Positions 29,028 through 43,925 of a DNA stretch of 64,000 bases are shown piece after piece; position 1 is the first letter of the stretch, and the number at the start of each line of letters is the position of its first letter. Origin of the DNA: Thermophilibacter provencensis (lineage in GTDB: Bacteria; Actinomycetota; Coriobacteriia; Coriobacteriales; Atopobiaceae); the NCBI RefSeq assembly GCF_900128445.1, contig NZ_LT671417.1:1-64000 (forward strand). Direction: 5' to 3'. Position numbers and translations under genes: made by a program. The notes below the pieces were generated by a model, which ran no database searches, was not told the origin of the DNA, and worked only from the letters and a program-made list of their open reading frames with translations.

Positions 29028-30155
29028 TTGTCGTCCGAGACACGCATCCGTCAGCACGTCCGCACCGCCCTCGTCGCCGGAGCGCTGGGCGCCGCCCTCG
29101 CCATCCCGCTCGCCGCCTGGCCCACCGTGGCCCGAGCCGACGCGACCAGCGAGCTCCAGAGCGTCCAGCAGCAGATCCAGGAGGGCAACCAGGCCTACGA
29201 GGAGGCCACGGCGCGCGTCGAGGAGCTCCAGGCCCAGATCGACGAGAACGAGGCCCGCATCGCGGAGCTCGAGGCGGAGCTGCCCACGCAGCAGGCGCGC
29301 GCAGAGGACTCCCTGCGTGCCCTCTACAAGATGCAGCAGGGCACCGGCAGCCTGGTCGACCTGCTTCTCTCCGCCAGCGACTTCTATGAGCTTCTCTCCA
29401 CCATCCAGTACCTCGACGTCATCCAGTCCAGCAACAACGACGCCATCGAGGAGCTCCAGGCCTCCATGAAGGAGCTCGATCAGACGCGCTTCTCGCTCAA
29501 CTCCCAGATGGAGGAGGCGGAGCAGGAGCAGCAGCGCGCCGAGGACGCTCTCGCGCAGGCGAACGAGGCCCGCGCGGAGCTCGAGGCGCAGATCGCCGCT
29601 CAGGCGGCGGCCGAGGAGGCCGAGCGCCTCGCCGCGATCGAGGCCGCCCAGCGCGCCGCAGAGGAGGCCGCCGCGCAGGCCGCGGCAGCCGCCGAGGACG
29701 AGCAGGACGCGACCTTCACCACCGAGTCCGGCTCACAGGCCCCCATCGAGGTGCCCTCCTCCCCCGACGCGGGCAACGTCGACTGGAGCAGCGACAAGGC
29801 CGCCTTCGTCGCCGAGTGGTCCGCCCGCATCGACGCCTACCTTGCGGGCTCCCCGCTCGCCGGCCAGGGCACCACCTTTGCCGAGGCTGCCTGGGAGTAC
29901 GGCGTGGACCCGCGCTTCTCGCCCGCCATCTCCATGATCGAGAGCACCCAGGGTCGCTACTGCTTCCTCCCCCACAACGCCTGGGGCTGGGGCAGCTCGA
30001 GCTGGGACAGCTGGGAGGAGGCCATCTGGGACCACGTGGAGGGCCTCGCCATCGGGTACGGTGGCCAGCTCACCTACGCGGGCGCCAAGAAGTACTGCCC
30101 GCCCAACGCCGACTACTGGTACGCGGGCGTCCTCGCCAACATGGAGCGGATCTAG
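29028..30155 (+). CDS. Secreted coiled-coil cell-wall hydrolase with lysozyme-like C-terminus
   Basis: A 375-residue exported protein: signal peptide (about 1-37, ending ARADA), a long coiled coil (about 40-215) of Glu/Gln/Ala heptads with a PcsB/CwlO-like SLVDLLLSASDFYELLSTIQYLD segment, a short Pro/Ser linker, and a compact C-terminal domain (about 250-375). In the latter, FSPAISMIESTQGRYCF has the glutamate expected of a transglycosylase or glucosaminidase-like fold, followed by NAWGWGSSSWDSWEEAI. It starts at TTG with GAGGGGGA upstream. It probably cuts peptidoglycan at division, the coiled coil docking it to FtsEX-type partners, which are not in the window. Confidence 0.78.
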   Translation: MSSETRIRQHVRTALVAGALGAALAIPLAAWPTVARADATSELQSVQQQIQEGNQAYEEATARVEELQAQIDENEARIAELEAELPTQQARAEDSLRALYKMQQGTGSLVDLLLSASDFYELLSTIQYLDVIQSSNNDAIEELQASMKELDQTRFSLNSQMEEAEQEQQRAEDALAQANEARAELEAQIAAQAAAEEAERLAAIEAAQRAAEEAAAQAAAAAEDEQDATFTTESGSQAPIEVPSSPDAGNVDWSSDKAAFVAEWSARIDAYLAGSPLAGQGTTFAEAAWEYGVDPRFSPAISMIESTQGRYCFLPHNAWGWGSSSWDSWEEAIWDHVEGLAIGYGGQLTYAGAKKYCPPNADYWYAGVLANMERI

Positions 30156-30192
30156 GGACCCGCCGTTCTTCTCGCCCTAAACGGCACGGCTC

Positions 30193-30254
30193 AGCATGCC
30201 CCCGCGCACGGAACCCGCCCCCTCGGGCCACAGATCCGTGCGCGGGGGCATGCT
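30193..30254. terminator. Bidirectional 20-bp hairpin between convergent genes
   Basis: Perfect 20-base arms AGCATGCCCCCGCGCACGGA and complement with a 22-base loop, midway between the convergent cell-wall hydrolase and DMT transporter genes. A GTTCTTCTCGCC motif precedes it. Confidence 0.75.
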
Positions 30255-30290
30255 CGTCACCGCATGATGACGTGACGCCGGAACCACCCG

Positions 30291-31214
30291 CTAGGCCGTG
30301 AGATACACCATCGCGATAATGAGGCCAAAGCCCACGATCTCCGCGGGAGAGAAGGACGTGCCCAGCCACGCGACGGTGGCCACCGTCGCCGTGACCGGCT
30401 CGATGGTCCCGAGCAGGCTCGCGCGCATGGAGCCCGCGTCGTGCACCCCCTGCAGGTAGAGCGCATACGCCCCGAACGTGCCCACCACGACGCAGCCCAC
30501 GAGCACCGCCACCGCGAGCGCGTCGAGCTCCGGCATGTGCTCCCAGGGCCGGTACGCCGCGGAGAGGATGAGCCCCGAGACGAGGAACGCGAGCCCGTTG
30601 ACCGTGAAGTTTCCCCATCGCGCCATCGGGCGCGCCGGCAGGATGGAGAGGCACGCCGCGGCCCCCGCGCAGGCGAGGCCCCAGAAGAGCCCCTCGGGCG
30701 GCAGGCTCAGCGAGCCGGGGTTGCCGCCCGTCGCCACGAGGTAGGTCCCCACCAGGGCAAGGGCCACGCCGAGCGCCTCGCGGCGGCGGGGGCGGCGGCG
30801 CGTGCTCACGCACACGAACGCGAGCACGAGCACCATGCCCAGGCTCTGCATGATCGTGGCCGTGGCGGAGTTGGTCCAGTCGATGGCCTCGAGGTAGGCC
30901 ACCTGCGAGAAGAGGATGGCCCCCAGGCTCACGCCCAGGATGGCGAGCAGGTCGCGCGGGTGGCGCCACACGCCCGCAAGCTGCTCCCGACCACGTGAGG
31001 TGACGGCCGCGGCCGCGAGGAAGAGCCAGCACGCGGAGAGCTCGCGCACGCAGACGAGCCAGAGCGGGTCGATGGCGTAGGCGTCCATGAGCCACTTGGA
31101 GACGGTGCCGTTGAGGCCCCAGAAGGTCCCTCCCACGAGCGTCGCCACGATGCCGCGGCGCACGCGCCGACGGCGCTCGAGGTCTCTCTCAGACAGCTGG
31201 TTCTTCTCGGCCAC
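30291..31214 (-). CDS. EamA/DMT-family transporter
   Basis: A 307-residue protein of ten transmembrane helices built from two EamA repeats (about residues 18-150 and 165-300), the pattern of drug/metabolite exporters. The first repeat begins FWGLNGTVSKWLM and the second carries LLGTIEPVTATVATVAWLGTSFSPAEIVG. I chose the GTG at 31214 (VAEKNQLSE) because GGGGAGGG lies just upstream; these first codons again contain GAGAAGAAC. Substrate not predictable. Confidence 0.85.
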   Translation of the reverse strand: MAEKNQLSERDLERRRRVRRGIVATLVGGTFWGLNGTVSKWLMDAYAIDPLWLVCVRELSACWLFLAAAAVTSRGREQLAGVWRHPRDLLAILGVSLGAILFSQVAYLEAIDWTNSATATIMQSLGMVLVLAFVCVSTRRRPRRREALGVALALVGTYLVATGGNPGSLSLPPEGLFWGLACAGAAACLSILPARPMARWGNFTVNGLAFLVSGLILSAAYRPWEHMPELDALAVAVLVGCVVVGTFGAYALYLQGVHDAGSMRASLLGTIEPVTATVATVAWLGTSFSPAEIVGFGLIIAMVYLTA

Positions 31215-31369
31215 GCGCCCTCCCCTTGCTCGAAACGGCCCGCGATAGCCTACCATCTTCCGACCCGACTCAGCACATCAAATCTCTCCGCGGTTCTTGG
31301 CGGCCTCGGGCTGTCGGGCGCGCCCGCCTGCGCTATGCTCAGCTGAGAGAAAACGACAAGGGAGGAACC

Positions 31370-34297
31370 ATGAGCGAGAAGGACTTTCTCGCGGCGGACC
31401 CCGCGCTCGCCGTCGGCACGCGCCACGCGGGGTTCACCGTCACCGGCGTCGAGCGCCTGCCCGAGATCTCCGGCCACGCCTACCTCATGCGCCACGACGC
31501 CTCCGGCGCGCGGGCGCTCTGGCTCGCCTGCGCGGACGTGAATCGCGCCTTCGCCATCGGCTTCAGGACGCCCCCGGTCGACGACACGGGCGTCTTCCAC
31601 ATCATCGAGCACTCGGTGCTCTGCGGGTCGGATCGCTACCCGGTCAAGGAGCCCTTCGTCAACCTGCTCAAGACGAGCATGCAGACCTTCCTCAACGCCA
31701 TGACCTTCCCTGACAAGACGGTCTACCCGGTGGCCTCCACCAACGTGGCCGACCTCGAGAACCTCATGGGCGTCTACCTGGACGCGGTGCTGCACCCGGC
31801 CATCTACCGTCGCCCGCGCATCTTCGAGCAGGAGGGCTGGCACCTCGAGGCGGCCGACGACGGCTCGCTCAGCTACAACGGCGTGGTCTTCAACGAGATG
31901 AAGGGCGCGCTCTCCGACCCCGACGACGCCCTCTACCAGGCCGTCGGCCGCGCGCTCTTCCCCGACACGTGCTACGGGCACGAGTCCGGCGGAAACCCGC
32001 GCGCCATCCCCTCGCTTACCTACGAGGCCTTCCTCGACGCGCACGCGCGCCACTACGCCCTTCCCAACAGCTACACGGTGCTCTACGGCGACCTCGACAT
32101 CGACCGCGAGCTCGCCTTCATCGACGAGCGCTTCCGCGGGGCCGATCGGCGCGGGGCCGGCGCTCCCAACCCGCTCGAGCTCCAGGCCCCGGTGCGCGCC
32201 GAGCGCACGACCCTCGAGATGGCGACCGCCCCCTCCAACTCCTCGGTCGGGCTCGCCTACGTCGTGGGCACCGCGGCGGAGCGCACGCGCGTCCTCGGCG
32301 CGGACATCCTGCTCGACGCGCTCTGCGGCTCCAACGAGGCGCCGCTCAAGCGTCGGGTGCTGGACGCCGGGCTCGCCGACGACTTCTCCGCCATCCTCGT
32401 GGACGGCGTGCTCCAGCCGCACGCGCTCCTCATCCTCCGGGGCCTTCGCGATGGCGCGGGCGAGAGGTTCCGCGCGCTCGTGGAGGAGACGTGCGCCGAG
32501 CTCGCCGAGGGCGGCATCCCTCGCGACAAGCTCGAGGCCTCGCTCGCCCAGGCGGAGTTCAACCTGCGCGAGGGCGACTTCGGGGGCTACCCCGACGGCG
32601 TGGCGCTCTCGATTGCCGCGCTCTCCGGCTGGCTCTACGACGACGAGTGCGCCCTCGACTACCTGCGCTACGAGGACGCGCTCGCCGAGCTCAAGCGCGG
32701 GCTCGACGAGGGCTACTTCGAGCGGCTCCTGCGCGAGCTCGTCTGCGAGAGCAAGCACGCCGCCGAGGTCGAGCTCATCCCGGTGGAGGAGGGCGACGAT
32801 GCGGAGGAGGCCGCGGAGCTCGCGCGCCTGCGCGCGGGGATGGGCGAGAAGGACCTGGAGGCCGTGCGCGCTGAGGTCGCGGCGCTGCGCGCCGAGCAGG
32901 AGGCGCCGGACGCTCCCGAGGCGCTCGCCGCGCTCCCGCAGCTCACGCCCGCCGACATAGAGCCGCCGGCGCCCGAGCCCGCCCCGCTCGAGGTGGAAGC
33001 GCCCCTGCCCTGCGTGGCCCACGAGCTGGACACCCACGGCATCGACTATGTCTACCACTACTTTGACCTGCGCCGCCTCTCCCTGGAGGAGCTCTCGTGG
33101 GCGGGCGTGCTCACCGACCTCCTGGGCCGGCTCGACACGGCGCGCCACACGGCCTCGGACCTCGACACCCTCGTGGAGACGAACCTCGGGAGCCTCGACT
33201 TCTTCTGCGAGACCGCCACGCGCGACGACGACCTCTCCTTCGCCGCCCCACGCCTCGTGGTGGGCGCCTCGGCGCTCTCCGAGAAGGTGGGGTCGCTCGC
33301 CACGCTCCCCTCGGAGGTCTGGGGCGAGACGAGCTTCGGGGACCTCGGGCGCATCCGGGACGTCCTCACGCAGCGCAAGGTGTCCCTCGAGCAGTACTTC
33401 GTGGGCTCGGGGCACGCGGCGGCGAGCCAGCGCGCCAACACGTACTTCTCGGCCGCCGCCGTGGCGTCGAGCCGGATGGGCGGCCTGGACTACTACCTCT
33501 TCCTGCGCGAGCTCCTCGCACGCTGGGACGAGCTCTCGCCCGAGCTGCCGGGGCGCCTCTCGGCGCTGGCGGCGCGCGTCTTCACGGCGGACGAGGTGAC
33601 CGTGAGCTTCACGGGCTCGGCCGCCGACCGCGCGCGCTTCTGGGAGACGGGCGGGACGCTCGGCCTCGCGCACGCGGGGAGCGTGGCCCACGCCCTCGAG
33701 ATCCCGGCCCCCGAGCCGAGAAACGAGGGATTCGTCATTCCGTCGCCCGTGTGCTACGTGACGCGGGCGGCCGGCCGCTCCGCCGCGGACGCCGGCGCCC
33801 CGGGCCAGTGGGCCGTCGCCGCACGCGCCCTCTCCTACGACTACCTCTGGAACGAGGTCCGCGTGAAGGGCGGGGCATACGGCTGCGGGTTCAGGCGCTC
33901 GACGGAGGGCCTCACGCTCTTCTGGTCGTTCCGCGACCCGTCCGTGGACGCCACGCTCGCCCGCTACGACGCCGCGGCCGCATGGCTTGCCGGCTGGGAG
34001 CCGACCCCCGAGGAGCTGGACGGCTACGTGGTGGCCACCGTCGCGGCGCACGACGCCCCGCTGAAGCCGCGCCAGCTCGCGCGGCGCCAGGACGCGGCGC
34101 GCTTCGACGGGCGCCCGGACGGCTGGCGCGACGCCGTGCGCGAGCAGGAGCTCTCGGCAACGGCCGAGGGCCTGCGCGGGCTCGCCGCCGCCCTCGCGGA
34201 CGAGGGGGCGCCGCGCGGCGTCTGCGTCTTCGGTGGGCGTGAGGCCCTCGAGGCGAGCGGGCTCGAGCTCCAGATCACCGAGCTCGTGAGCGAGTGA
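31370..34297 (+). CDS. M16C family zinc metallopeptidase (PreP-like)
   Basis: A 975-residue peptidase of the insulinase/pitrilysin clan, presequence-protease subgroup, forming a two-half clamshell in one chain. The inverted zinc motif is HIIEHSVLCGS (HxxEH near residue 77) with the distal Glu in FNEMKGALSDPDDALYQ (about 168). The second half, from about residue 550, is the inactive partner with ARRQDA- and GGAYG-type sequences (VKGGAYGCGFR). The usual role is degrading unstructured peptides. ATG 31370 has GGAGG seven bases upstream. Its stop overlaps the histidine kinase start (TGATG), so it may be co-transcribed with the following regulatory and transport genes. Confidence 0.9.
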   Translation: MSEKDFLAADPALAVGTRHAGFTVTGVERLPEISGHAYLMRHDASGARALWLACADVNRAFAIGFRTPPVDDTGVFHIIEHSVLCGSDRYPVKEPFVNLLKTSMQTFLNAMTFPDKTVYPVASTNVADLENLMGVYLDAVLHPAIYRRPRIFEQEGWHLEAADDGSLSYNGVVFNEMKGALSDPDDALYQAVGRALFPDTCYGHESGGNPRAIPSLTYEAFLDAHARHYALPNSYTVLYGDLDIDRELAFIDERFRGADRRGAGAPNPLELQAPVRAERTTLEMATAPSNSSVGLAYVVGTAAERTRVLGADILLDALCGSNEAPLKRRVLDAGLADDFSAILVDGVLQPHALLILRGLRDGAGERFRALVEETCAELAEGGIPRDKLEASLAQAEFNLREGDFGGYPDGVALSIAALSGWLYDDECALDYLRYEDALAELKRGLDEGYFERLLRELVCESKHAAEVELIPVEEGDDAEEAAELARLRAGMGEKDLEAVRAEVAALRAEQEAPDAPEALAALPQLTPADIEPPAPEPAPLEVEAPLPCVAHELDTHGIDYVYHYFDLRRLSLEELSWAGVLTDLLGRLDTARHTASDLDTLVETNLGSLDFFCETATRDDDLSFAAPRLVVGASALSEKVGSLATLPSEVWGETSFGDLGRIRDVLTQRKVSLEQYFVGSGHAAASQRANTYFSAAAVASSRMGGLDYYLFLRELLARWDELSPELPGRLSALAARVFTADEVTVSFTGSAADRARFWETGGTLGLAHAGSVAHALEIPAPEPRNEGFVIPSPVCYVTRAAGRSAADAGAPGQWAVAARALSYDYLWNEVRVKGGAYGCGFRRSTEGLTLFWSFRDPSVDATLARYDAAAAWLAGWEPTPEELDGYVVATVAAHDAPLKPRQLARRQDAARFDGRPDGWRDAVREQELSATAEGLRGLAAALADEGAPRGVCVFGGREALEASGLELQITELVSE

Positions 34298-35802
34298 TGA
34301 GACGGGACGGCCCCCTCGCGTCGCTCCTCGTGACCGCGGGCCTGCTCGCGGGCGCCACGCTGGTCGGATCGGCGCTGCGCGCGGCAGGCCTCCAGGAGGC
34401 CACGGTCGTGGTGACCTACGTGCTTGCCGTCATCGGCGTGGCGCTCGCCACGCCGGGCGGGCCGTGGTGCCTCGTCGCCTCCGCGCTCGCCGTCCTCGCC
34501 TTCAACTTCTTCTTCGCCGCGCCGACGCTCTCCCTCGCGGCGCTTGACCCCGCCATGCCCGGGACCTTCGCGGTGATGTTCGTCGTGGCGCTCGTGGCGG
34601 GGCACCTCGCCGCGCGCCTGCGCCTCCAGGCGCGCGCGGCGGAGGCGGCCCGCGAGCGCACCCAGGCGCTCCTGGACCTCTCGCGGCGCCTCCAGGACTG
34701 CACCACGGGGCCGGACGTCGTTGCCGCCATGGCCGCGACCGCCAGGGAGGCGCTGGGCTGCTCGCTCGCCTGGTACCCGGCCGCCGGGGGCGGGCGTGCG
34801 CTCGGCGCGCCAACGCTCTTCTCGGCAGATGGCTCGTCAGTCGTAGAGGAGGGCAGCGTCGCGCTGCGCGCGCTCGCGAACGGCATCCCCGCCGGGGCCG
34901 GAACGCCGGCCTTCGGCTCTGCCTTCGGGTTCTACCGTCCCGTCGGCCCTGCGGCCCATGCGCACGGCGTGGCGGGAGTCGTCCCCGCCGCCGGCCTCTC
35001 GGCGGAGGAGCGGGGGCTCTGGGGATCCGTCTGCGGGCTCGCCGCCCTTGCGCTCGACCGCGTGGAGGCCCTCGAGCAGCGCGAGGAGGAGGCGGTGCGC
35101 GCCCGCGACCAGAAGACCCGCGCCGACCTCCTGCGCTCCATCTCGCACGACCTGCGCACGCCGCTCACCTCGATCGCGGGCACGGCGGACGTCCTTTTGG
35201 AGGCGGGAGACGCGCTCGACGGCGCGACGCGCGGGCGCCTGCTCGCCGCGATCCGGGACGACGCCCGCTGGCTGCGCGGCACCGTGGAGAACCTCCTCAC
35301 GGTCACGCGCCTCGAGGAGGGAGGGGTGAGCCCGCTCGCGGACGTGGAGCTCGTGGACGACCTCATCGAGGAGGCCCTGCGGCACGCCGCAACCGACCCC
35401 GCGCACCCCGTGAGCTTCGAGCCCCCCGCAGAGCCCCTGCTCGTGCGCGCCGACCCGTCGCTCGTAGTGCAGGCGCTCGTGAATCTGATCAACAACGCCG
35501 TGGCGCACACGCCGGCCGGCTGCGCCGTCACGGTCTCTGCCGCGCGCTCGGGACCGAGCGTCGGGCTCTGCGTGGCGGATGACGGCCCGGGCATCCCGGA
35601 TTCCGAGAAGGACCGCATCTTCGAGGCCTTTCACAGCGGCTCGGGCGGGCTGCCCGACGGGACCCGCAGCGTGGGCCTCGGCCTTTCCGTCTGCCGAGCC
35701 GTCGCGCGGGCCCACGGGGGCGGCATCTGCGTTCGCGACCGGAAGCCCCACGGCTCCGTCTTCGTCCTCTCCCTTCCCGCCGAGGAGGTCCCCGATGTCT
35801 GA
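34297..35802 (+). CDS. KdpD-like sensor histidine kinase without the N-terminal KdpD/Usp part
   Basis: A 501-residue membrane kinase equal to the C-terminal half of KdpD: a four-helix DUF4118 module (about residues 8-105), a GAF-like region (about 125-260), HisKA with SISHDLRTPLTSI (His about 284) and HATPase (NLINNAVAHTP, DDGPGIPDSEKDR, GLGLSVCRAVARAHGG). The large cytoplasmic N-terminal KdpD and Usp domains of the E. coli protein are absent. Its start overlaps the peptidase stop and its end overlaps the response regulator by 8 bases. The genes that follow encode a Na+,K+-ATPase-like pump and TrkA proteins, so K+ or ionic strength is the probable signal; that is inference. Confidence 0.88.
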   Translation: MRRDGPLASLLVTAGLLAGATLVGSALRAAGLQEATVVVTYVLAVIGVALATPGGPWCLVASALAVLAFNFFFAAPTLSLAALDPAMPGTFAVMFVVALVAGHLAARLRLQARAAEAARERTQALLDLSRRLQDCTTGPDVVAAMAATAREALGCSLAWYPAAGGGRALGAPTLFSADGSSVVEEGSVALRALANGIPAGAGTPAFGSAFGFYRPVGPAAHAHGVAGVVPAAGLSAEERGLWGSVCGLAALALDRVEALEQREEEAVRARDQKTRADLLRSISHDLRTPLTSIAGTADVLLEAGDALDGATRGRLLAAIRDDARWLRGTVENLLTVTRLEEGGVSPLADVELVDDLIEEALRHAATDPAHPVSFEPPAEPLLVRADPSLVVQALVNLINNAVAHTPAGCAVTVSAARSGPSVGLCVADDGPGIPDSEKDRIFEAFHSGSGGLPDGTRSVGLGLSVCRAVARAHGGGICVRDRKPHGSVFVLSLPAEEVPDV

Positions 35803-36505
35803 TGCCGCAAGCGAGTCCGTGCTCGTCCTCGTCGTGGAGGACGACCCGGCGATCGCAAACCTCGTCCGCACCGCGCTCGAGTCGCACGGGGCCCAGGTGA
35901 GCGTGGCCGAGACGGCAGCGGGGGCCATCGCGCGCGCGGCCGAGCTCTCCCCCCAGGTCATCCTGCTTGACCTAGGCCTTCCGGACGCAGACGGCATCGA
36001 GGTCGTCCGGCGGGTGCGCACCTGGTCCCAGAGCCTCCCGATCATCGTGGTCTCCGCGCGCGCGGAGGACGCGGACAAGATCGGCGCCCTCGACGCCGGC
36101 GCGGACGACTATCTCGTAAAGCCCTTCTCGGTGGGAGAGCTCCTCGCCCGCGTGCGGGTGGCGCTGCGCCGCGCGAGCCACGAGCCCGGCCCGCCCGAGT
36201 CTGCCACCTTCGAGAACGGCGGGCTCATGATCGACTACGCGGCCGGAATCGCCCGCGTGCGCGGGGAGGAGCTCCGGCTCACGGCCATGGAGTACCGGCT
36301 GCTCGCCCTTCTCTCCAGAAACGCCGACAAGGTCCTCACCCACCAGTACCTGCTGGAGCGCGCCTGGGGAGAGGGGCAGGTGGGGGACCTCGCGTCACTG
36401 CGCGTGCTCATGGCGTCGCTGCGCAAGAAGCTCGCCCGCGCCGGGGCGGACGGCCTCATCCAGACCCACGTGGGCGTGGGCTACCGCCTGCTCCGCTCCT
36501 CCTGA
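35795..36505 (+). CDS. OmpR/KdpE-family response regulator
   Basis: A 236-residue regulator: a receiver domain (residues 8-122) with the phosphoacceptor Asp59 in VILLDLGLPDADG, acidic pair EDD near residue 15 and Lys in VKPFSVGELL, followed by a winged-helix DNA-binding domain (about 138-236) with LTAMEYRLLALLSRNADKVLTHQYLLERAWG and the late THVGVGYRL. It is translationally coupled to the KdpD-like kinase. The direct repeat at 36613-36662, in front of the ATPase gene, is a good candidate binding site because OmpR-type regulators bind head-to-tail repeats. Confidence 0.9.
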   Translation: MSDAASESVLVLVVEDDPAIANLVRTALESHGAQVSVAETAAGAIARAAELSPQVILLDLGLPDADGIEVVRRVRTWSQSLPIIVVSARAEDADKIGALDAGADDYLVKPFSVGELLARVRVALRRASHEPGPPESATFENGGLMIDYAAGIARVRGEELRLTAMEYRLLALLSRNADKVLTHQYLLERAWGEGQVGDLASLRVLMASLRKKLARAGADGLIQTHVGVGYRLLRSS

Positions 36506-36506
36506 C

Positions 36507-36602
36507 GGGGCGACCTGACAAAGGTGACTGACAAAGGTGACAGGGCCAACTGTCATGAACCATTCATGACAGTTGGCCCTGTCACCTTTGTCAGGTCGCC
36601 CC
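36507..36602. repeat. REP palindrome with duplicated left arm
   Basis: Arms from GGGGCGACCTGACAAAGGTGA inward to CTGTCATG around a short loop; the left arm carries an extra tandem copy of TGACAAAGGTGAC. Same family as 11261, 22664 and 23985. It follows the response regulator and may separate its transcript from the ATPase operon. Confidence 0.85.
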
Positions 36603-36612
36603 ACCTGCGGCG

Positions 36613-36662
36613 TTAATGCGGTCTTTATGCCGTCGCACCCCTTCTTAACAGGGTCTTTATGC
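36613..36662 (+). promoter_or_regulatory. Helically phased direct repeat upstream of the P-type ATPase
   Basis: TTAATGCGGTCTTTATGC at 36613-36630 and TTAACAGGGTCTTTATGC at 36645-36662 match at 15 of 18 positions and start 32 bases apart, three turns of DNA. They lie about 100 bases before the ATPase start codon. The layout fits binding by an OmpR/KdpE-type regulator such as the one encoded just upstream. Confidence 0.6.
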
Positions 36663-36763
36663 TTGTGACGTGACGTTTTGACCGTATGCCCGCTCGCCGC
36701 GGACAGGCCTCGCGCGCTGACCTACCCTAGCCGCGTACGACAGCAGCGAGTAGGGAGGGCGCG

Positions 36764-39601
36764 ATGATGGCCAGTGGTCAGACGCAGCCCGTCGCCGTTC
36801 AGAGGCTCACGGCGGACAGGGTCTTCTCGGCGCTGGGGACCTCCGCGGCGGGGCTCACGCAGGCCGACGCCGAGGCCCGTCAGGCAAGGCAGGGCAAGAA
36901 CCTCATCCAGACCGAGAGGAAGAAGTCCCCGGTCCTGGCATTCCTCTCCAACTTCACCCACCTCATGGCATGCCTTCTGTGGGCTGCGGGAATCATCGCC
37001 TTCGTGGCGGGACTGCCGGAACTGGGCGTGGCGGTGTGGATGGTGAACCTCATCAACGGGTGCTTCAGCTTCTGGCAGGAGTATCGCGCCGGAAAGGCGA
37101 CGGACGCCCTCAAGAAGATGCTCCCCTCCTACGCCACCGTCATCCGCGACGGCCAGGAGCAGAAGATCCTTGCCGAGGACCTCGTGCCCGGCGACGTGAT
37201 GGTGCTCGCGGAGGGCGACAAGATCTCCGCCGACGCCCGCGTGGTGCGTGCGAGCGACCTGCAGGTCAACCAGTCCACGCTCACCGGTGAGTCCAACCCC
37301 GTGCGCAAGACGGCGGACGCCGTGCTCGAGGAGGACCTCACGCAGGCGGAGACGCCCAACCTCGTGTTCGCGGGGACCTCGGTCTCGGGGGGCAACGGGC
37401 GCGTCGTGGTCACGCGCATCGGCATGGACACGGAGTTCGGCAAGATCGCGCACCTCACGCAGAACATGGAGGAAGCCGAGAGCCCGCTGCAGCTGCAGCT
37501 CAACCGCACGACCAAGCAGATCACGGTCTTCGCCGCCTGCATGGGCGTGGGCTTCTTCGCCCTTGACCAGCTCTTCGTGGGAAGCGAGTTCGCGGCGGCC
37601 TTCATCTTCTCTCTCGGCATGGTCGTGGCCTTCATCCCCGAGGGGCTCCTCCCCACGGTGACGCTCTCGCTCGCCATGGCCGTCCAGCGCATGAGCAAGA
37701 GAAACGCCCTCGTGAAGAAGCTCAACTCTGTGGAGACGCTCGGGTCGTGCTCGGTCATCTGCACGGACAAGACGGGCACGCTCACGCAGAACGAGATGAC
37801 GGTGAACCGCCTCTGGGCCGTGACGGCCGAGTACGAGGTCACAGGCGTTGGCTACGGACCCGAGGGCGAGGTGCGCGTGGCGGGCCACCGCATACAGGCC
37901 GCCTACGACGACGACCTGCGCCTGCTCGTGGCCGGCGGGGCGCTCTGCTCCAACGCGCGCCTGCTCCCGCCCGAGGAGGAGGGCGGGCGCTACACCGTGC
38001 TCGGTGACCCCACCGAGGCCTGCCTGCTCGTGGCCGCCCAGAAGGCGGGCGTGGACCCCGCCGAGCAGGAGCGGGCATGGCCGCGCGTGCGCGAGCTCCC
38101 CTTCGAGAGCCGCCGCAAGCGCATGACGACGATCCACCAGCTGCCCGAGCCGCTCGACGGCGCGAGGCGCGTGGCCTTCGTCAAGGGCGCCCCGAACGAG
38201 ATACTTCGCCTCTCCACCCGCTGCCGCGCCCACGAGCAGACCGTCCCCATGACCGACGAGCTGCGCGAGAAGATCACGTCGGCCAACGACTCCTACGCCG
38301 CCGAGGGCCTGCGCGTCCTCGCCGTGGCCTACCGCCCGCTGCGCGCCGACGACGAGACGCTGCCTCGCTCCGTGAGCGCCTACGAGCCGGACAGCATCGA
38401 GCGCGACCTCGTCTTCGTGGGCCTCGAGGTCATGCAGGACCCACCACGTCCCGAGGTCGCCGACGCCGTGGAGCAGTGCCGGCGCGCCGGCATCCGCGTC
38501 ATCATGATCACCGGCGACTACGGCCTCACCGCCGTCTCCATCGCGCGCAAGATCGGCATCGTGCGCGGCGAGCGCCCGCGGGTCCTCTCGGGCGTCGATC
38601 TCGAGCGCATCAGCGACGAGGAGCTCAAGGAGGCCCTCTCCGGCGAGGTGGTCTTCGCCCGGATGGCGCCCGAGCAGAAGCTGCGCGTGGTCGAGAACCT
38701 CCAGCAGATGGGAGAGATCGTGGCCGTCACGGGCGACGGCGTGAACGACTCCCCCGCCCTCAAGAAGGCGGACATCGGCGTGGCCATGGGCATCACGGGC
38801 ACCGACGTGGCCAAGGAGGCCGCCGACATGGTCCTCACCGACGACAACTTCGCCTCGATCGTCCATGCCATCGAGGAGGGCCGCGCGGTCTATGCCAACA
38901 TCCGCAAGTTCATGCTCTACATCCTGAACTCCAACATGCCCGAGGCCGTGCCCTCGGCCGTCTACCTGCTCTCCGGGGGCGCGGTGCCGCTGCCTCTCAC
39001 CACGATGCAGATCCTCACCATCGATCTCGGCACGGACATGCTGCCGGCCTTGGGCCTGGGGTGCGAGGCGCCGGAGGCAGACGTCATGAACCGCCCGCCG
39101 CGAAACCCCAAGGAGCCCCTGCTCACGGGCAAGCTCATGCGCAAGGCCTTCCTCTGGTACGGCCTCATGGGCGGCGTGGTCTCCATGGCGGCCTACCTCT
39201 TCGCGCAGCTGGAGGCCGGATGGGGCCCGGGAGCCGAGATGTTTGGCGTGGGCGCCGACCTCGACCCCGTCTACGTACGCGCGACGACCATGTGCCTCGC
39301 GGCAATCGTGTTCGCCCAGATCGGCCAAGTGCTGAACTGCCGCACCGAGACCGCCTCGGTCTTCTCGCGAGGGCTCTTCTCCAACCGGCACATCAACGTC
39401 GGCATCGTCTTCGAGGTCTGCCTTATCGTGTTCATAACGCTCTTCCCGCCCTTCCAGGCAGTGTTCCACACGAGCCCGCTCGGGGTCTGGGACTACGCGT
39501 TCCTCTGCTGCCTGCCGCCAATCGTGCTCGCGGTCGAGGAGGCACGGAAGGCCCTGTTCCGTCACGTCAAGCGGCGCCGCACGGGCGTCGAGGGGAGGTA
39601 G
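36764..39601 (+). CDS. P2C-type (Na+,K+-ATPase-like) cation-pumping P-type ATPase
   Basis: A 945-residue P-type ATPase with an N-terminal cation-ATPase domain, STLTGES (TGES actuator, about residue 178), FIPEGLLPTVTLSLA in TM4 (about 292), the phosphorylated Asp in CTDKTGTLTQNEMTV (about 335), KGAPNEIL, and the hinge VTGDGVNDSPALKKADIG. In TM5-6, LNSNMPEAVPSAV and ILTIDLGTDMLPALGLGCEAPEAD closely follow eukaryotic Na+,K+/H+,K+-ATPase alpha chains (IDLGTDM-PA---E--E-D), unlike Ca2+ or Mg2+ pumps. Likely transport of Na+ and/or K+. It is followed after 4 bases by a TrkA-like gene. No beta subunit is encoded nearby; the 36-residue peptide at 41071 is a possible partner. Confidence 0.85.
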   Translation: MMASGQTQPVAVQRLTADRVFSALGTSAAGLTQADAEARQARQGKNLIQTERKKSPVLAFLSNFTHLMACLLWAAGIIAFVAGLPELGVAVWMVNLINGCFSFWQEYRAGKATDALKKMLPSYATVIRDGQEQKILAEDLVPGDVMVLAEGDKISADARVVRASDLQVNQSTLTGESNPVRKTADAVLEEDLTQAETPNLVFAGTSVSGGNGRVVVTRIGMDTEFGKIAHLTQNMEEAESPLQLQLNRTTKQITVFAACMGVGFFALDQLFVGSEFAAAFIFSLGMVVAFIPEGLLPTVTLSLAMAVQRMSKRNALVKKLNSVETLGSCSVICTDKTGTLTQNEMTVNRLWAVTAEYEVTGVGYGPEGEVRVAGHRIQAAYDDDLRLLVAGGALCSNARLLPPEEEGGRYTVLGDPTEACLLVAAQKAGVDPAEQERAWPRVRELPFESRRKRMTTIHQLPEPLDGARRVAFVKGAPNEILRLSTRCRAHEQTVPMTDELREKITSANDSYAAEGLRVLAVAYRPLRADDETLPRSVSAYEPDSIERDLVFVGLEVMQDPPRPEVADAVEQCRRAGIRVIMITGDYGLTAVSIARKIGIVRGERPRVLSGVDLERISDEELKEALSGEVVFARMAPEQKLRVVENLQQMGEIVAVTGDGVNDSPALKKADIGVAMGITGTDVAKEAADMVLTDDNFASIVHAIEEGRAVYANIRKFMLYILNSNMPEAVPSAVYLLSGGAVPLPLTTMQILTIDLGTDMLPALGLGCEAPEADVMNRPPRNPKEPLLTGKLMRKAFLWYGLMGGVVSMAAYLFAQLEAGWGPGAEMFGVGADLDPVYVRATTMCLAAIVFAQIGQVLNCRTETASVFSRGLFSNRHINVGIVFEVCLIVFITLFPPFQAVFHTSPLGVWDYAFLCCLPPIVLAVEEARKALFRHVKRRRTGVEGR

Positions 39602-39605
39602 TGCC

Positions 39606-40259
39606 ATGAACGTCATCGTAGTGGGCGCGGGCCACATGGGACGCGGGCTCGCGGAGCGCCTCAGCCGCCAGGGACACGACGTCACCGTCATAGACCGCGA
39701 CGCCGAGGAGCTCGAGGAGCTCGACGAGGGCTTTGCCGGCAGGCGCGTGGTCGGCGTGGGGTTTGACCGGGCGGTCCTCGCCGAGGCGGGGGTAGAGCGC
39801 GCGAGCGCCGTCATCGCCTGCACCTCCTCCGACGAGGCCAACGTCGTCATCGCACGCATCGCCCGCGGGACCTACCGCGTGCCGCGCGTGATCGCCCGCC
39901 TCTACGACATCAGCAAGGCCGAGACGTACCGCCGCCTGGGCATCCAAACCATCTCAACCACCGACTGGGGCATCCGTCATGCCTGCGAGCTGCTCACCTA
40001 CCAGGAGATGGACACGGTGCTGGAGATCGGGTCGGGAGACGTCCAGCTCGTGCGCAGCGACGTTCCCGCCCTTCTCGAGGGGCGTCCCGTGCGCGAGGTC
40101 ACGGCCATCGGAGAGGTCGAGGTCGTGGCGGTGTCGCGCAGCAACGAGACCTTCATCCCGACCCTAGGAACCGTCCTGGAGCACGGGGACGTCATCTATG
40201 CGGCCGTGGCGTCGAGCGCCTCGGCGAAGTTCCGCTACATGCTCGGCACGAACGCCTAA
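39606..40259 (+). CDS. TrkA-family RCK protein (first of two)
   Basis: A 217-residue cytoplasmic protein: a Rossmann RCK_N domain (residues 1-120) with the dinucleotide loop VVGAGHMGRGLAERL, conserved acidic VIDRDAEEL and CTSSDEANVVIARIA, followed by a TrkA_C domain (about 130-217). Such subunits bind NAD(H), ATP/ADP or c-di-AMP and gate TrkH/KtrB K+ channels. Here the nearest membrane partner is the P-type ATPase ending 4 bases upstream; no TrkH or KtrB is encoded in the window. It may regulate the pump or a channel encoded elsewhere. Confidence 0.88.
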   Translation: MNVIVVGAGHMGRGLAERLSRQGHDVTVIDRDAEELEELDEGFAGRRVVGVGFDRAVLAEAGVERASAVIACTSSDEANVVIARIARGTYRVPRVIARLYDISKAETYRRLGIQTISTTDWGIRHACELLTYQEMDTVLEIGSGDVQLVRSDVPALLEGRPVREVTAIGEVEVVAVSRSNETFIPTLGTVLEHGDVIYAAVASSASAKFRYMLGTNA

Positions 40260-40268
40260 GGAGGGGCC

Positions 40269-40928
40269 ATGGACATCATCATCGTTGGCGGAGGGAAGAC
40301 CGGCACCCATCTCGCGACGCTGCTCACCGAGGATGGCTACCGAATTCGCATCATCGAGTCCCGCAAGGGACTCATGCCCCGCCTGCGCGGCCAGTTCGGC
40401 GAGCGCGACGTCATCCTCGGCAACGGCGCCGACCCGCTCACCCTTGAGCGTGCGGGCATCCTCCACGCGGACGTCGTGGTGGCGGCGACGGGCTCTGACG
40501 AGGTCAACCTCGTGGTCTCCACCCTCGCCAAGATGGAGTACAACGTGAGCCGCGTGGTGGCGCGCGTGAACGACCCGGCCAACGCCTGGATGTTCAACGA
40601 GTCCATGGGGGTCGACGTGGGCATCAACCAGGCGGACATTCTCGCGCGCTCCGTTCAGGAGGGGCTCGACCTGAGGGACGTCTTCACGATCCTGCGCCTC
40701 GGCAAGGACGGCCATGCCGTCGTGCGCGTGGAGGTGCGGCCCGGCTCGCACGTCGTGGGCGAGGCGCTGCGCGACGTCGAGCTGCCCGGCCAGACCATCC
40801 TCGTGGCCATCGACCGCGCGGGCGACATCATCGTCCCCAAGGGGGGCACCCGCTTCGCCGCGGGCGACAAGATCATCGCCTTCACCAACGCCGAGGGCCG
40901 CTCGCGCCTCCACCGCGCCTTCGCCTAG
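40269..40928 (+). CDS. TrkA-family RCK protein (second of two)
   Basis: A 219-residue RCK protein, paralogous to the preceding one: IIVGGGKTGTHLATLL nucleotide loop, RIIESRKG, LGNGADPLTLERAGI, AATGSDEVNLVVSTLAKM, then TrkA_C with GEALRDVELPGQTILVAIDR and GGTRFAAGDKIIAF. It starts 9 bases after the first copy with AAGGAGG. Two different RCK proteins in tandem suggest a hetero-ring, as in systems where two subunits sense different ligands. Confidence 0.88.
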   Translation: MDIIIVGGGKTGTHLATLLTEDGYRIRIIESRKGLMPRLRGQFGERDVILGNGADPLTLERAGILHADVVVAATGSDEVNLVVSTLAKMEYNVSRVVARVNDPANAWMFNESMGVDVGINQADILARSVQEGLDLRDVFTILRLGKDGHAVVRVEVRPGSHVVGEALRDVELPGQTILVAIDRAGDIIVPKGGTRFAAGDKIIAFTNAEGRSRLHRAFA

Positions 40929-41070
40929 GCAGGGGGTGCCGGGAGGAGGCAGCCCCCTCATCAGCCCCCGCCCCAACCTTGCGAAAGCGTAAGACGCGAG
41001 CAACCTTGCGCGATGGCGCCCTGTCGGCCGGCGTCGGACAATGGTCCCAACAAGCCGGGGAAAGGGGTCC

Positions 41071-41181
41071 ATGATGGTCCAGCAGCTCTACGTCCTTCTC
41101 GCCACGCTCGCCACCCTGCTCGTGCTGGGGCCCATCGCGCTCTGGCCCATCATCCAGGAGCGCCTGGACGGAGGCAGGTAG
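41071..41181 (+). CDS. 36-residue single-span membrane peptide
   Basis: A short frame starting ATGATG with AAAGGGG six bases upstream, encoding MMVQQLYVLLATLATLLVLG, then PIALWPIIQERLDGGR: one hydrophobic helix followed by a charged tail, like KdpF and other small pump-associated peptides. It lies 142 bases after the second RCK gene, followed at once by a strong palindrome. A CAACCTTGCG direct repeat (40974 and 41001) precedes it. It could be an accessory subunit of the P2C pump. Coding status is supported by the ribosome binding site and clean topology only. Confidence 0.55.
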   Translation: MMVQQLYVLLATLATLLVLGPIALWPIIQERLDGGR

Positions 41182-41194
41182 CGGGACCCTTGCC

Positions 41195-41245
41195 GCACAG
41201 CCCGACATCTTTGGCCACATCTCGCCGTTTTTTGTCGGGCTGTGC
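41195..41245. repeat. REP palindrome, CCCGACAT-TTTG family
   Basis: A 51-base element with perfect 13-base arms GCACAGCCCGACA/TGTCGGGCTGTGC and a CATCTCGCC core with a T6 run. It is the partner of 25164-25213. It ends the ATPase-RCK block and lies before the convergent nitroreductase gene, where it could act as a terminator. Confidence 0.75.
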
Positions 41246-41264
41246 GACCAATTCGGCACAGCCC

Positions 41265-41843
41265 CTAGACAAGCAGGTCCTCCAGCCGCAGCTTGGGCAC
41301 GCAGTGGGTGCCGTCGGGCTCGCGCCAGTAGGAGAGGCCGTGCTCGGTGTCGGGCCCCTCGAGCGAGACGTGCTCGCCGCGGCCGCCCACCGCGAGCACG
41401 AGGGCGGGCACGAGGCCGTCCGGCAGGGAGAGCTCCTCGGCGAGGCCCACGTCGAAGCTGCGGATCATGCAGCAGCCAAGGCCCCGCGCACAGGCGGCGA
41501 GCGCCATCGTCTGGGCGGCGATGCCGACGTCGATGAGGCGGACGGGGTTGTCCGCGAGCTGGGCGGGCAGGCAGACTACCACGTATCCGTGCGGGCGCTC
41601 CTCCGGGGAGGGCCCGTCCCAGTCCCGGTAGAGCGCCGCCCAGCGCAGGTGGCCGAACACGGCCTCGCAGGCGTCGCGCTCCCCGACCACGCGGAAGCGC
41701 AGGGCCTGCGCGTTGTTGCCGCACGGGGCGAGGCGCGCCGCGTCGACGAGCCCCTCGAGCACCGTCTGACCCACCCGGCGGTCGCTGAAGCGTCGATAGG
41801 TCCGCGACGCCGCCACGAGATCCCTGAGCTCCATCCCGTTCAT
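41265..41843 (-). CDS. Nitroreductase-family FMN oxidoreductase
   Basis: A 192-residue flavoprotein of the nitroreductase fold. LVAASRTYRRFSDRRV near the N-terminus is the FMN-phosphate loop; APCGNNAQALRFRVV and the later ARGLGCCMIRSFD are the other flavin-contacting stretches. These enzymes use NAD(P)H to reduce nitro, quinone or ene groups; the substrate is not predictable. I chose the ATG at 41843 (GGGAGGG upstream). The DNA before it is a REP pair, so a longer in-frame start would translate repeat DNA. Confidence 0.85.
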   Translation of the reverse strand: MNGMELRDLVAASRTYRRFSDRRVGQTVLEGLVDAARLAPCGNNAQALRFRVVGERDACEAVFGHLRWAALYRDWDGPSPEERPHGYVVVCLPAQLADNPVRLIDVGIAAQTMALAACARGLGCCMIRSFDVGLAEELSLPDGLVPALVLAVGGRGEHVSLEGPDTEHGLSYWREPDGTHCVPKLRLEDLLV

Positions 41844-41856
41844 CGCACCCTCCCCT

Positions 41857-41922
41857 CTGCAAATTGGGGACAGTCCCCAATTTGCAGAAAACATTTATGT
41901 GAATTGGGGACTGTCCCCAATT
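41857..41922. repeat. Paired GGGGACAGTCCCC palindromes (REP/RAYT type)
   Basis: CTGCAAATTGGGGA-CAG-TCCCCAATTTGCAG at 41857-41887 and AATTGGGGA-CTG-TCCCCAATT at 41902-41922. The GGGGACAGTCCCC core is the commonest form of REP element mobilised by RAYT (Y1) transposases in many bacteria. Related sequence occurs at 56135 and 60184. Confidence 0.8.
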
Positions 41923-41940
41923 TGCAGAACGCGCCCCTCC

Positions 41941-42765
41941 TCAGATGAGGCCCAGGCGCACGCAGGCGTTCCAGATGCCGTCGTCGTCGACGTGATCGGT
42001 CACGTAGGTGGCCGCGGCGCGGGCCTCAGGGTTGCCGTTGCCCATGGCCACGGACGTCCCCACGACGCGGAACATGTCCACGTCGTTGCCCCCGTCGCCA
42101 AAGGCCACGCACTCCTCGGGCGCAAGCCCCAGCTCCTCCATCACGATCCGCACGCCCGCATCCTTGCCGCCGGCGTCCGGCATGATGTCGGCGAAGACGT
42201 CAGACCAGCGCGTCGCCTTGCAGTGACGCGCGCGGTCGAGAAGAACGCGCTCCTCGCCGGGGTCAACGAAGAGGTTCAGCTGGTAGACGTCGTTCCTGAG
42301 CGCCTGCTCGACGTCCCCCGCCTCGTAGTGGTTGTGCGTGAGCTCGGTCATCTCCCTCAGGCGGTCGTCCTCGGCGTGCGCGTACATGCGGTCGCGCTCC
42401 ATGAAGAGGCAGTTGTAGAGGCCGGCCTGCGTCTGGCGCACCGCCGTCTCCACGTCGCGCGGGTCGAGCGGGTTGGAGTGCACCGTGCGCCCGCCCACCT
42501 CGACGAGCTGCCCGTTGAAGGTCACGAACGCCCTGAAGTCAGTGAGGTCGACCTTGTCGAGCAGGTAGTGCGTGCGCCCCGTGGCCAGGATCGGCATGAC
42601 GCCGGCCTCCGAGAGCCGTCGGATCGCCTCGCGCGTGGAGGCGGGCTCGGCATCCTGCGAGAGGCTGAGCATCGTGCCGTCAACGTCGAAGAAGGCGGCG
42701 CGGATCGGGGCCGGCGCAACCCAGGCCCCGGGCGCGGGGCAGGGGCCCTTCTTGCCCACGCGCAT
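41941..42765 (-). CDS. Cof-type HAD-superfamily (IIB) phosphatase
   Basis: A 274-residue HAD hydrolase with motif I FFDVDGTMLSL (about residue 28), motif II threonine in ILATGRTH, motif III lysine near KDAGVRI, and motif IV AFGDGGNDVDMFRV. The IIB cap lies between. The start overlaps the aminotransferase stop by one base (TGATG), so both are translated from one message. The first 20 residues before the fold are Pro/Lys-rich. A second member of the family is at 11911; the two are only distantly similar. Substrate unknown, probably a phosphorylated sugar or cofactor such as pyridoxal phosphate. Confidence 0.85.
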   Translation of the reverse strand: MRVGKKGPCPAPGAWVAPAPIRAAFFDVDGTMLSLSQDAEPASTREAIRRLSEAGVMPILATGRTHYLLDKVDLTDFRAFVTFNGQLVEVGGRTVHSNPLDPRDVETAVRQTQAGLYNCLFMERDRMYAHAEDDRLREMTELTHNHYEAGDVEQALRNDVYQLNLFVDPGEERVLLDRARHCKATRWSDVFADIMPDAGGKDAGVRIVMEELGLAPEECVAFGDGGNDVDMFRVVGTSVAMGNGNPEARAAATYVTDHVDDDGIWNACVRLGLI

Positions 42766-43925
42766 CACATCCCCGCCGCGGCGATGGCGGCCACGGCCTC
42801 GCGGAGCTCGTCGGGCGGCATCACGAGAGCCATGCGGACATAGCCCTCGCCCGAGGGGCCAAAGCTCGCGCCCGGCGTCACGATCACGCCGGAGCGCTCC
42901 ATGAGCTCGAGCGCGAAGGACATCGAGTCGGTCCGCCCGCCCGGGATGCGCGCCCACACGAACATCGAGCCATGGGCGTTGGGGCGCTCCCAGCCGATCG
43001 CCTCGAGGCCGTCGCAGAGGGCGTCGCGACGCTCCTGGTAGAGCAGGCGCTGGCGCTCGACGGAGTCGCGCGGGCCCGTGAGCGCCGCGATCGCGGCGTC
43101 CTGCTCGGGGTAGAACATGCCAAAGTCCACCTGTCCGCGAAGCTTGCGCGCGGCAGCCACCACATCGGGGCGGCCCACGAGGAAGGACAGGCGCGCGCCC
43201 GTCACGTTGAAGGACTTGGAGAGCGAGAGGAACTCCACGCCCACCTCGGCCGCGCCGGGATACGCGAGGAAGGAGCCGCCCGGCTCTCCGTCGAAGACGA
43301 TGTCGGAGTATGCGTTGTCGTGGATCACGATGAGGTCGTGCTCGCGAGCGAAGGAGATTGCCTCCTCGTAGACCTCGGGCGTGCCCACCGAGCCCACGGG
43401 ATTGGCGGGAAGCGAGAGGATCAGGTACTTGGCGGCGTCGGCGACCTCAGCCGGTATCTCCGAGAGGCACGGCAGGAAGTCGTGCTCCGCGGTGAGCGGA
43501 TAGTAGGCGGGGCGCGCGCCGGCGAGCAGCGTGGCGTTCTGGAAGACGGGATAGCACGGGTCGGGAACGAGGCCCACCTCGCCCGGGTCGGCGAGCGCGG
43601 CGCAGACGTATCCCAGGCCCTCCTGCGTGCCGCGGCAGCTCATGACCATGTCTGGCGTCACGCCCGCCACGCCGAAGCGGCCCTCGTAGTAGGAGCAGAC
43701 GGCGGCCAGAAGCTCGTCCTTGTCGTGCAGCGAGTACTTCCAGTTGGCGGGGTCCGCCGCGCTCTCGCGCAGCGCCTCGACCACGTGCGCCGGCGGCTCG
43801 AAGTCGGGCGTGCCCACGGAGAGGTCGTACACGCGCCGCCCCTCCGCCTCGAGCGCGCGCCGCCGCGCGTTGAGCGCCGCGAACACCTCGTCGCCGAACA
43901 GGTCAAGTCGCCTGGAGAAATTCAT
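42765..43925 (-). CDS. Class I/II PLP-dependent aminotransferase
   Basis: A 386-residue fold-type I aminotransferase. YDLSVGTPDFEPP near the N-terminus, VMSCRGTQEGLGY (cofactor phosphate site), LSLPANPVGSVG, IHDNAYSDIVFDG (Asp and Tyr contacting the ring) and the Schiff-base lysine in FLSLSKSFNVTGARLSF (about residue 235) are all present, with the substrate arginine late in YVRMALV. It resembles LL-diaminopimelate/aspartate-type aminotransferases, but the exact amino acid cannot be fixed. ATG 43925 has a GAGGGGGG stretch upstream. First gene of a two-gene unit with the HAD phosphatase. Confidence 0.85.
   Translation of the reverse strand: MNFSRRLDLFGDEVFAALNARRRALEAEGRRVYDLSVGTPDFEPPAHVVEALRESAADPANWKYSLHDKDELLAAVCSYYEGRFGVAGVTPDMVMSCRGTQEGLGYVCAALADPGEVGLVPDPCYPVFQNATLLAGARPAYYPLTAEHDFLPCLSEIPAEVADAAKYLILSLPANPVGSVGTPEVYEEAISFAREHDLIVIHDNAYSDIVFDGEPGGSFLAYPGAAEVGVEFLSLSKSFNVTGARLSFLVGRPDVVAAARKLRGQVDFGMFYPEQDAAIAALTGPRDSVERQRLLYQERRDALCDGLEAIGWERPNAHGSMFVWARIPGGRTDSMSFALELMERSGVIVTPGASFGPSGEGYVRMALVMPPDELREAVAAIAAAGM

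Follow-up and report, generated by a model that had tools for sequence, protein, structure and literature searches.

TrkA-type nucleotide-sensing proteins normally control potassium channels. In the genome of Thermophilibacter provencensis, two such proteins, here called RCK1 and RCK2, are encoded directly after a P-type ATPase that resembles the animal Na+,K+-ATPase (P2C-like). The locus lies on contig NZ_LT671417.1, within a stretch of 64,000 nucleotides (positions 1 to 64,000) that was analysed as a whole and is referred to as the window. The three genes form a unit that is conserved across the class Coriobacteriia and recurs in other Actinomycetota, and direct regulation of the pump by the RCK pair is plausible as a hypothesis.

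The closest described systems each share part of this arrangement. RCK1 and RCK2 match the halves of TrkA from the TrkA-TrkH system, but the neighbour of the RCK genes is here a P-type pump and not TrkH. TM1088A/B of Thermotoga is a two-subunit RCK ring with a 4+4 assembly, according to the available part of PMC4380455; both RCK proteins match it, and RCK2 in its short form is like TM1088A, but again the neighbour here is a pump. KdpFABC with KdpDE likewise combines a P-type pump with a nearby KdpD/E-like pair; at this locus, however, there is no KdpA match, the pump is not KdpB-like and the kinase lacks the KdpD N-terminus. Mycobacterial CeoB and CeoC are two TrkA-type proteins in one K+-uptake system, a likeness drawn from their description alone, the available part of which does not mention an adjacent P2C pump. 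On the pump side, the animal Na+,K+-ATPase alpha subunit shares with the window ATPase its domains, M4, M5 and M6 residues, Q923 and tree position, but the window ATPase falls short of the TIGR01106 cut-off and has a changed site III. The animal enzyme has beta and FXYD subunits, whereas the window pump has RCK neighbours (beta genes were not searched for). P2C-like ATPases of Methanosarcinaceae and Proteobacteria (loci L184, L192, L145 and others) belong to the same wider clade (Shimodaira-Hasegawa-like approximate likelihood ratio test, SH-aLRT, 100) and share the K+-site residues in nearly all rows, but have no adjacent RCK genes and mostly carry TGDH or TGDN, not TGDYG.

Among the matches listed in the open-licence literature, none connects RCK/TrkA proteins with a P-type ATPase. 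A review poses the role of P2C pumps in archaea as an open question, and RCK does not occur in the part of it available (PMC10654040). A Streptomyces review covers K+ transporters and RCK_C proteins, with no pump-RCK pair in the accessible portion (PMC10117811), and for one actinobacterial genome, Trk is named in the accessible passages of PMC7325909, as is a P-type ATPase, but the two are not linked. RCK and membrane-partner terms were not found in the available text of PMC12136442, and in that of PMC10219603 the term matches fall in the reference list.

The core features of the locus are as follows:

36764-39601, + strand: P2C-like (Na+,K+-ATPase-like) P-type ATPase, 945 amino acids (aa)
37619-37675, + strand: M4 cation-site segment MVVAFIPEGLLPTVTLSLA; E293 corresponds to E327 of Na,K-ATPase
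38510-38533, + strand: P-domain segment TGDYGLTA, residues 583-590, marker of RCK-linked pumps
38897-38971, + strand: M5 cation-site segment; S723, N724 and E727 correspond to S775, N776 and E779
39005-39067, + strand: M6 cation-site segment; D754 and D758 correspond to D804 and D808
39606-40259, + strand: RCK1 (TrkA_N and TrkA_C), 217 aa, after a 4-base gap from the ATPase
40269-40928, + strand: RCK2 (TrkA_N and TrkA_C), 219 aa, after a 9-base gap from RCK1

An earlier note on this DNA had placed six genes here, these three together with a kinase, a regulator and a peptide described further below. All six were found at the positions it gave, on the same (+) strand. The motifs quoted for the ATPase are present in the translated protein, and the coordinates agree with an RCK gene 4 bases after the ATPase and a second one next.

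Conservation of the ATPase-RCK1-RCK2 unit

The genus sample comprises 31 genomes, including the host's own, with a completeness of 76-99%. ATPase relatives (76-100% identity, one split over two contigs) occur in 16 of these and are missing from 15. At the TrkA_N family cut-off, the RCK pair is present in 16/16 genomes that bear the ATPase vs 0/15 that lack it. Two genomes of another family also carry the ATPase, which brings the first survey to 18 genomes, and the order and strand of ATPase-RCK1-RCK2 are kept in all of them.

For the class, an RCK1 profile and an ATPase profile were each run on 346 genomes. The RCK1 scores are stepped, with 50 matches at E<=4e-107, two at 2e-68 and 5e-66, and 14 down to 8e-48; the matches beyond are lower-scoring TrkA-type proteins, and the limit of E<=1e-47 was set after the list had been seen. 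Forty loci were fetched: all 16 of the two middle (deep) groups, 20 of the top group that had not been fetched earlier, and four from below (G130, G114, G099 and G076). RCK1 is immediately preceded by the ATPase and immediately followed by RCK2 in 15/16 middle and 20/20 top loci (35/36 together), with only part of the ATPase visible in one of the positives of each group. The four lower-scoring loci (L115-L118) show this order in no case. The ATPase gene and that of RCK1 share a few bases in some of the deep loci. Where the order is kept, the ATPases of the class loci are 47-79% identical to that of the window.

Presence and absence are closely matched. With the two best ATPase candidates per genome scored, 65 genomes lie above 1059 bits and the others, among the matches listed, at 861 or below. 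Both genes are found in 64 of the 346 genomes, the ATPase only in one, RCK1 only in two and neither in 279, which makes 65 genomes with this ATPase type and 66 with the linked RCK1. The contig of the ATPase-only genome (G120) ends inside the ATPase, and that of one RCK1-only genome (G264) ends in an ATPase fragment beside RCK1; the other (G178) is a genuine exception. A P2C pump was also sought beside the RCK pairs of other families in the order, and none was seen.

Beyond the class, named genomes were scanned with the M5-M6 segment, and the best 80 loci of at least 498 relatives were considered. Twenty of these are labelled Actinomycetota, including Candidatus Solincola, Candidatus Aquicultor and Acidimicrobium, and RCK genes come right after the ATPase in all 18 that have room downstream; the contigs of the other two end in the ATPase, and L148 shows one RCK gene, near the contig end. 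Among the 60 loci not labelled Actinomycetota, some of whose contigs end early, none has an RCK gene beside the ATPase. They are mostly from Proteobacteria, with Methanosarcinaceae, Nitrospirae, Chloracidobacterium and others, and two are labelled just "bacterium". From a phylum sample of 396 genomes, 61 high-scoring loci outside the class were fetched. An RCK gene lies on the same strand within 500 bases after the ATPase in 43 of them and at 513 bases in one more, and nearly all of the RCK-followed loci show both RCKs. RCK genes adjoin an ATPase in every one of the 43 top-scoring loci (L241-L283). Twelve additional loci, two of which are larger stretches around loci already counted, gave 11 with an RCK-linked ATPase and one whose contig ends in the ATPase. 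In L152, L168, L193, L205 and L215, the three genes stand alone amid flanks that look unrelated by eye.

Neighbour conservation in relatives was one test that the earlier note had set for its proposal, and the order does hold between families of the class, as well as in named Actinomycetota from other classes. Since gene order and spacing recur across loci, the association goes beyond chance.

The pump and its cation site

The ATPase has a DKTGTLT phosphorylation site at residues 335-341 and exceeds the Pfam cut-offs for E1-E2_ATPase, Cation_ATPase_N and Cation_ATPase_C. Its closest solved structures, by PDB matches, are Na+,K+-ATPases. The residues E327, S775, N776, E779, D804, D808 and Q923, which we take to be those of the K+ site of Na,K-ATPase, all have their equivalents kept in the window ATPase by alignment, and the same seven are kept in nearly all RCK-linked pumps. 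The D804 position is D (D754) in the window ATPase vs N in Ca2+-type rows. The ATPase remains under the cut-off of TIGR01116 (575.2 vs 703.4 bits), and the KdpB model gives 114.4 bits vs a cut-off of 527.9.

A 73-row tree places the RCK-linked pumps, their archaeal and proteobacterial relatives and human ATP1A3 on one branch (SH-aLRT 100, length 1.18), and LMCA1, SPCA1 and the host genome's own LMCA1-like pump fall outside it. This last is a separate Ca2+-type pump that the host also encodes. The 43 RCK-linked ATPase rows are found in a single 44-row clade (98), the sole extra row being L216 of Chloracidobacterium, without RCK. In a 20-row tree, the ATPase joins human ATP1A3 (99/100), and a Ca2+-pump grouping without ATP1A3 is rejected by the approximately unbiased test (p-AU 0.014). 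These placements carry the caveat of one animal alpha row (ATP1A3) and long branches. The suggestion that the ATPase is close to animal Na+,K+-ATPases is thereby borne out, both by the grouping with ATP1A3 and by the kept K+-site residues; the clustering with Ca2+ pumps that would have spoken against it was seen neither with LMCA1 or SPCA1 nor with the genome's own Ca2+-type pump.

A comparison of 43 linked with 18 unlinked pumps gave eight differing positions, among the sharpest of which are Y586-G587 after TGD, where unlinked pumps commonly have H and P. Across 182 distinct ATPases, TGDYG occurs in 100/103 linked pumps, 3/69 unlinked ones and 3/10 without room downstream. Two of the three unlinked cases are second copies within an RCK cluster; G363 and G407 each have a second copy clustered with a single RCK pair. 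The linked pumps belong to a single clade, so TGDYG is possibly a change inherited once, and TGDYGLTA was rejected as independent proof of RCK contact. The loop is a lead for such contact, short of proof.

In the loci of these two genomes (L306 in G363 and L311 in G407), two P2C-like ATPases share one RCK pair, and the orders across the two loci are ATPase-ATPase-RCK-RCK and ATPase-RCK-RCK-ATPase. Outside Actinomycetota, a P2C-like ATPase with TGDYGLTA is found at a contig end of a Fusobacteriaceae metagenome-assembled genome (L176), which may reflect transfer or a binning error.

The RCK pair, other potassium transporters and accessory genes

Both RCK1 and RCK2 exceed the Pfam cut-offs for TrkA_N and TrkA_C, and both match TM1088A and TM1088B. 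RCK1 is best aligned with the N-terminal half of TrkA and RCK2 with the C-terminal half of Vibrio TrkA, so the two look like a split TrkA. RCK2 is merely 135-152 aa in nine of the 15 deep loci (L099, L100, L102, L103, L105, L106, L107, L109 and L110), which is the size of one RCK_N lobe, like TM1088A, the domains here being judged by length. GxGxxG is present in 26/26 RCK1 and 26/26 RCK2 proteins examined. The RCK_C signature for binding of cyclic di-AMP (c-di-AMP), given as (I/L)(I/L)X2DX1RX5N(I/L)(I/L) in the available part of PMC10117811, matched 0 of 138 RCK rows. As the signature is missing, c-di-AMP is a less likely ligand and was disfavoured as a candidate.

In a tree of the 138 RCK rows, the ATPase-linked RCK1 and RCK2 proteins form one clade each (44 rows per clade, SH-aLRT 98%). 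Other RCK pairs fall elsewhere, even within loci that contain both kinds (L143, L144, L160, L163, L188, L194 and L200). These loci have 5-7 RCK domains around one pump unit, and several include open reading frames of 455-478 aa with two RCKs each; genes near some of them resemble V-type ATPase subunits by eye. Elsewhere (L060, L061, L063, L070 and L073), RCK pairs lie beside a protein of 889-1149 aa with 4-5 predicted spans and, by eye, a peptidase-like N-terminus; the one that was scanned (L063) had no Pfam match. Related pairs that lack a pump have other neighbours: a KimA homologue in L118 (KimA 6s3k, E 1.9e-136), an APC-family permease in L112 and a Na_Ca_ex protein in L117, where a further APC-like reading frame lies several kb off by eye. 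The L115 pair has neither a permease nor an exchanger of these types beside it. L112, L117 and L118 are apparent cases of partner switching.

In the host genome, which is 2.63 Mb long and 99.5% complete, searches for TrkH/KtrB, KdpA and Ion_trans_2 channels matched nothing; in 14 genomes used as positive controls, they matched TrkH/KtrB in 11, KdpA in five and Ion_trans_2 in 11. TrkH/KtrB was found in 0/31 genus genomes, and a genus search for KimA, without positive control, found nothing. On these grounds, TrkH, KdpA, Ion_trans_2 and, without that control, KimA were set aside as trans partners in the host. A single Kup is encoded in the host genome, and Kup is present in all 31 genomes of the genus. 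Among 31 further ATPase-bearing genomes tested, TrkH was not found in 23. The absence of TrkH/KtrB and KdpFABC partners that the earlier note had seen at the locus thus extends genome-wide for TrkH/KtrB and KdpA, and a TrkH/KtrB serving as the sole partner of the RCK proteins was encountered neither in the genus nor in those 23 genomes. To judge by sequence, the usual RCK partners are unmatched in the host, and the nucleotide-binding motifs of the RCK proteins are intact.

In G095, G099, G105, G130 and G178, TrkH has a lower-scoring RCK1-type match roughly 1 kb away, as judged by coordinates for proteins outside the RCK tree. G095 and G105 also have the ATPase unit elsewhere, so TrkH can have its own RCKs while the pump has others.

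The remaining features around the unit are these:

31226-34297, + strand: M16C/PreP-type peptidase, directly 5' of the kinase and also upstream in most genus loci
34297-35802 (alternative start 34294), + strand: KdpD-like sensor kinase with a DUF4118 membrane domain, without the KdpD/Usp N-terminus
35795-36505, + strand: OmpR/KdpE-like response regulator, from domain scans
41071-41181, + strand: single-span membrane peptide, 36 aa
47771-50497, + strand: second P-type ATPase, an MgtA/MgtB-type Mg2+ transporter (TIGR01524, 969.8 bits, above cut-off)

The regulator most likely starts at the ATG at 35795; a reading-frame start at 35579 is disfavoured because it falls within the kinase gene. Against the KdpD model of 895 residues, the kinase aligns over positions 402-888 (218.9 bits vs a cut-off of 1123), which agrees with its description as KdpD-like but lacking the KdpD/Usp N-terminus. 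The domain scans likewise agree with an OmpR-type regulator upstream of the ATPase, and the reported 36-residue single-span peptide is present downstream of RCK2. An Rfam scan of 30000-46000 at the gathering threshold matched no RNA regulators.

The kinase and regulator lie upstream of the ATPase in 16/18 first-survey genomes, and the pair is found there in the genus and several allied genera. Within the same two families, no such pair was found at nine of the 20 other ATPase loci (one of the nine is truncated inside the ATPase), nor at 14/15 deeper loci that have the ATPase, among which L104 and L113 have little room upstream. The peptide follows RCK2 in 6/18 ATPase genomes, once 0.8 kb away. 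Being patchy across ATPase loci, kinase, regulator and peptide fall outside the core, and this distribution rules them out as core parts; the pair is a lineage-specific accessory and the peptide at most an accessory. From the self-contained system and the ATPase-RCK-RCK-small reading frame order put forward earlier, what stands is the ATPase-RCK1-RCK2 unit, kept across families of the class; the kinase/regulator pair and the peptide vary between lineages and drop out.

Regulation of the pump and rival explanations

At the level of genome comparison, the pump and its RCK pair are a conserved three-gene unit with matched presence and absence, separate RCK clades and a P2C-type cation site. The reading we favour, and consider rather probable, is of a P2C-like pump, moving Na+ out and K+ in, under a dedicated RCK1/RCK2 ring or dimer that senses adenine nucleotide. 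What we infer are the ions moved, the ligand, the direct contact, the sign of control and what the kinase and regulator do. The ATPase would most likely expel Na+ and import K+, spending ATP. RCK1 and RCK2 would assemble into a two-subunit ring or dimer of the TrkA type. Binding of ATP/ADP or NAD(H) to it would alter the RCK assembly such that the cytosolic domains of the pump are restrained or freed. Pumping would then follow the energy charge, akin to the gating of TrkH by TrkA. In TrkA-TrkH, ADP and ATP change the TrkA assembly, according to the available part of PMC6987127. The kinase/regulator pair may add transcriptional control in the host lineage. Because no TrkH or KdpA was found, the pump is proposed to complement Kup in K+ uptake, and it would add primary Na+ export. 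A bolder version, on which belief and doubt are evenly balanced, is that this is the first RCK-regulated P-type ATPase, in which a two-subunit TrkA-type ring docks near TGDYGLTA and throttles Na+/K+ exchange by energy charge, and that it is widespread in Actinomycetota.

Several observations weigh against RCK control of a Na+,K+-type pump. Many ATPases of the wider clade have no RCK neighbours, and in the lower-scoring part of the phylum sample (L284-L301) such neighbours are seen in 2/18 loci and none in 16/18. Each linked RCK clade includes four pairs without an adjacent ATPase (L112, L115, L117 and L118), and the genomes behind the co-occurrence counts are related, hence the counts are not phylogenetically independent, and a Fisher value computed for them is given no weight. 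The model for Na,K- and H,K-ATPases (TIGR01106) gives 627.9 bits and its cut-off of 946.1 is not reached, which is why the ATPase is named P2C-like only; its top NCBIfam score is that of the PMR1 Ca2+ model TIGR01522, at 648.3 bits vs a cut-off of 798.3. Y771, T772, D926 and E954 are presumably the residues of Na+ site III. Y771 and E954 are kept in the window ATPase, and T772 is changed to I and D926 to Q; in RCK-linked pumps generally, T772 is mostly I, and the D926 position is Q, E, N, V or M outside the window. With site III altered, the stoichiometry, and even the use of Na+, may therefore differ.

The pump could on this account export Na+, or swap Na+ for H+, without importing K+, with the RCKs sensing NAD(H)/ATP for Na+-based energetics. 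We find this doubtful: all checked K+-coordinating residues are kept, and the S775 position has no Lys, Lys in place of S775 being the H+,K+-ATPase change. What speaks for it, besides site III residues unlike those of the animal enzyme, is that PMC10654040, in its available part, calls the archaeal P2C pumps uncharacterised. The PMR1-type score, although below its cut-off, and the related pair beside a Na_Ca_ex protein in L117 would suit a Ca2+ (P2A-type) pump whose Ca2+ export the RCK pair would brake in response to Ca2+ or nucleotide. The grouping with human Na+,K+-ATPase, the rejected Ca2+-pump grouping, the best PDB matches, the D at the D804 position and the separate LMCA1-like pump make that quite improbable.

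It is also conceivable, if unlikely, that the RCK pair acts in trans on another K+ transporter and is merely co-expressed with the pump in a K+ or osmotic response. Channels, TrkH/KtrB and antiporters are known to have RCKs, and related pairs stand beside a KimA-type K+ importer (L118) or an APC permease (L112) with the ATPase missing. However, the host has no match to TrkH, KdpA or Ion_trans_2, the genus search for KimA (no positive control) was empty, and the 15 genus genomes that lack the ATPase are also without the RCKs, though all 31 have Kup; these searches covered TrkH/KtrB, KdpA, Ion_trans_2, KimA and Kup, with CPA antiporters left out. Adjacency through chance or a shared promoter, without function, is hardly credible, given an order that is kept where the ATPases are 47-79% identical and in the varied flanks of other Actinomycetota.

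A conserved P2C-like pump that has an RCK pair of its own, in bacteria often without TrkH, offers a genetically linked handle on prokaryotic P2C function, and the three-gene unit brings together the residues of the K+ site, two putative regulators and a loop that may be their contact. If direct control of the pump is true, RCK regulation would reach beyond channels and secondary carriers into primary active transport, and the RCK ring would act on a phosphorylated pump cycle, not on a pore or a secondary carrier.

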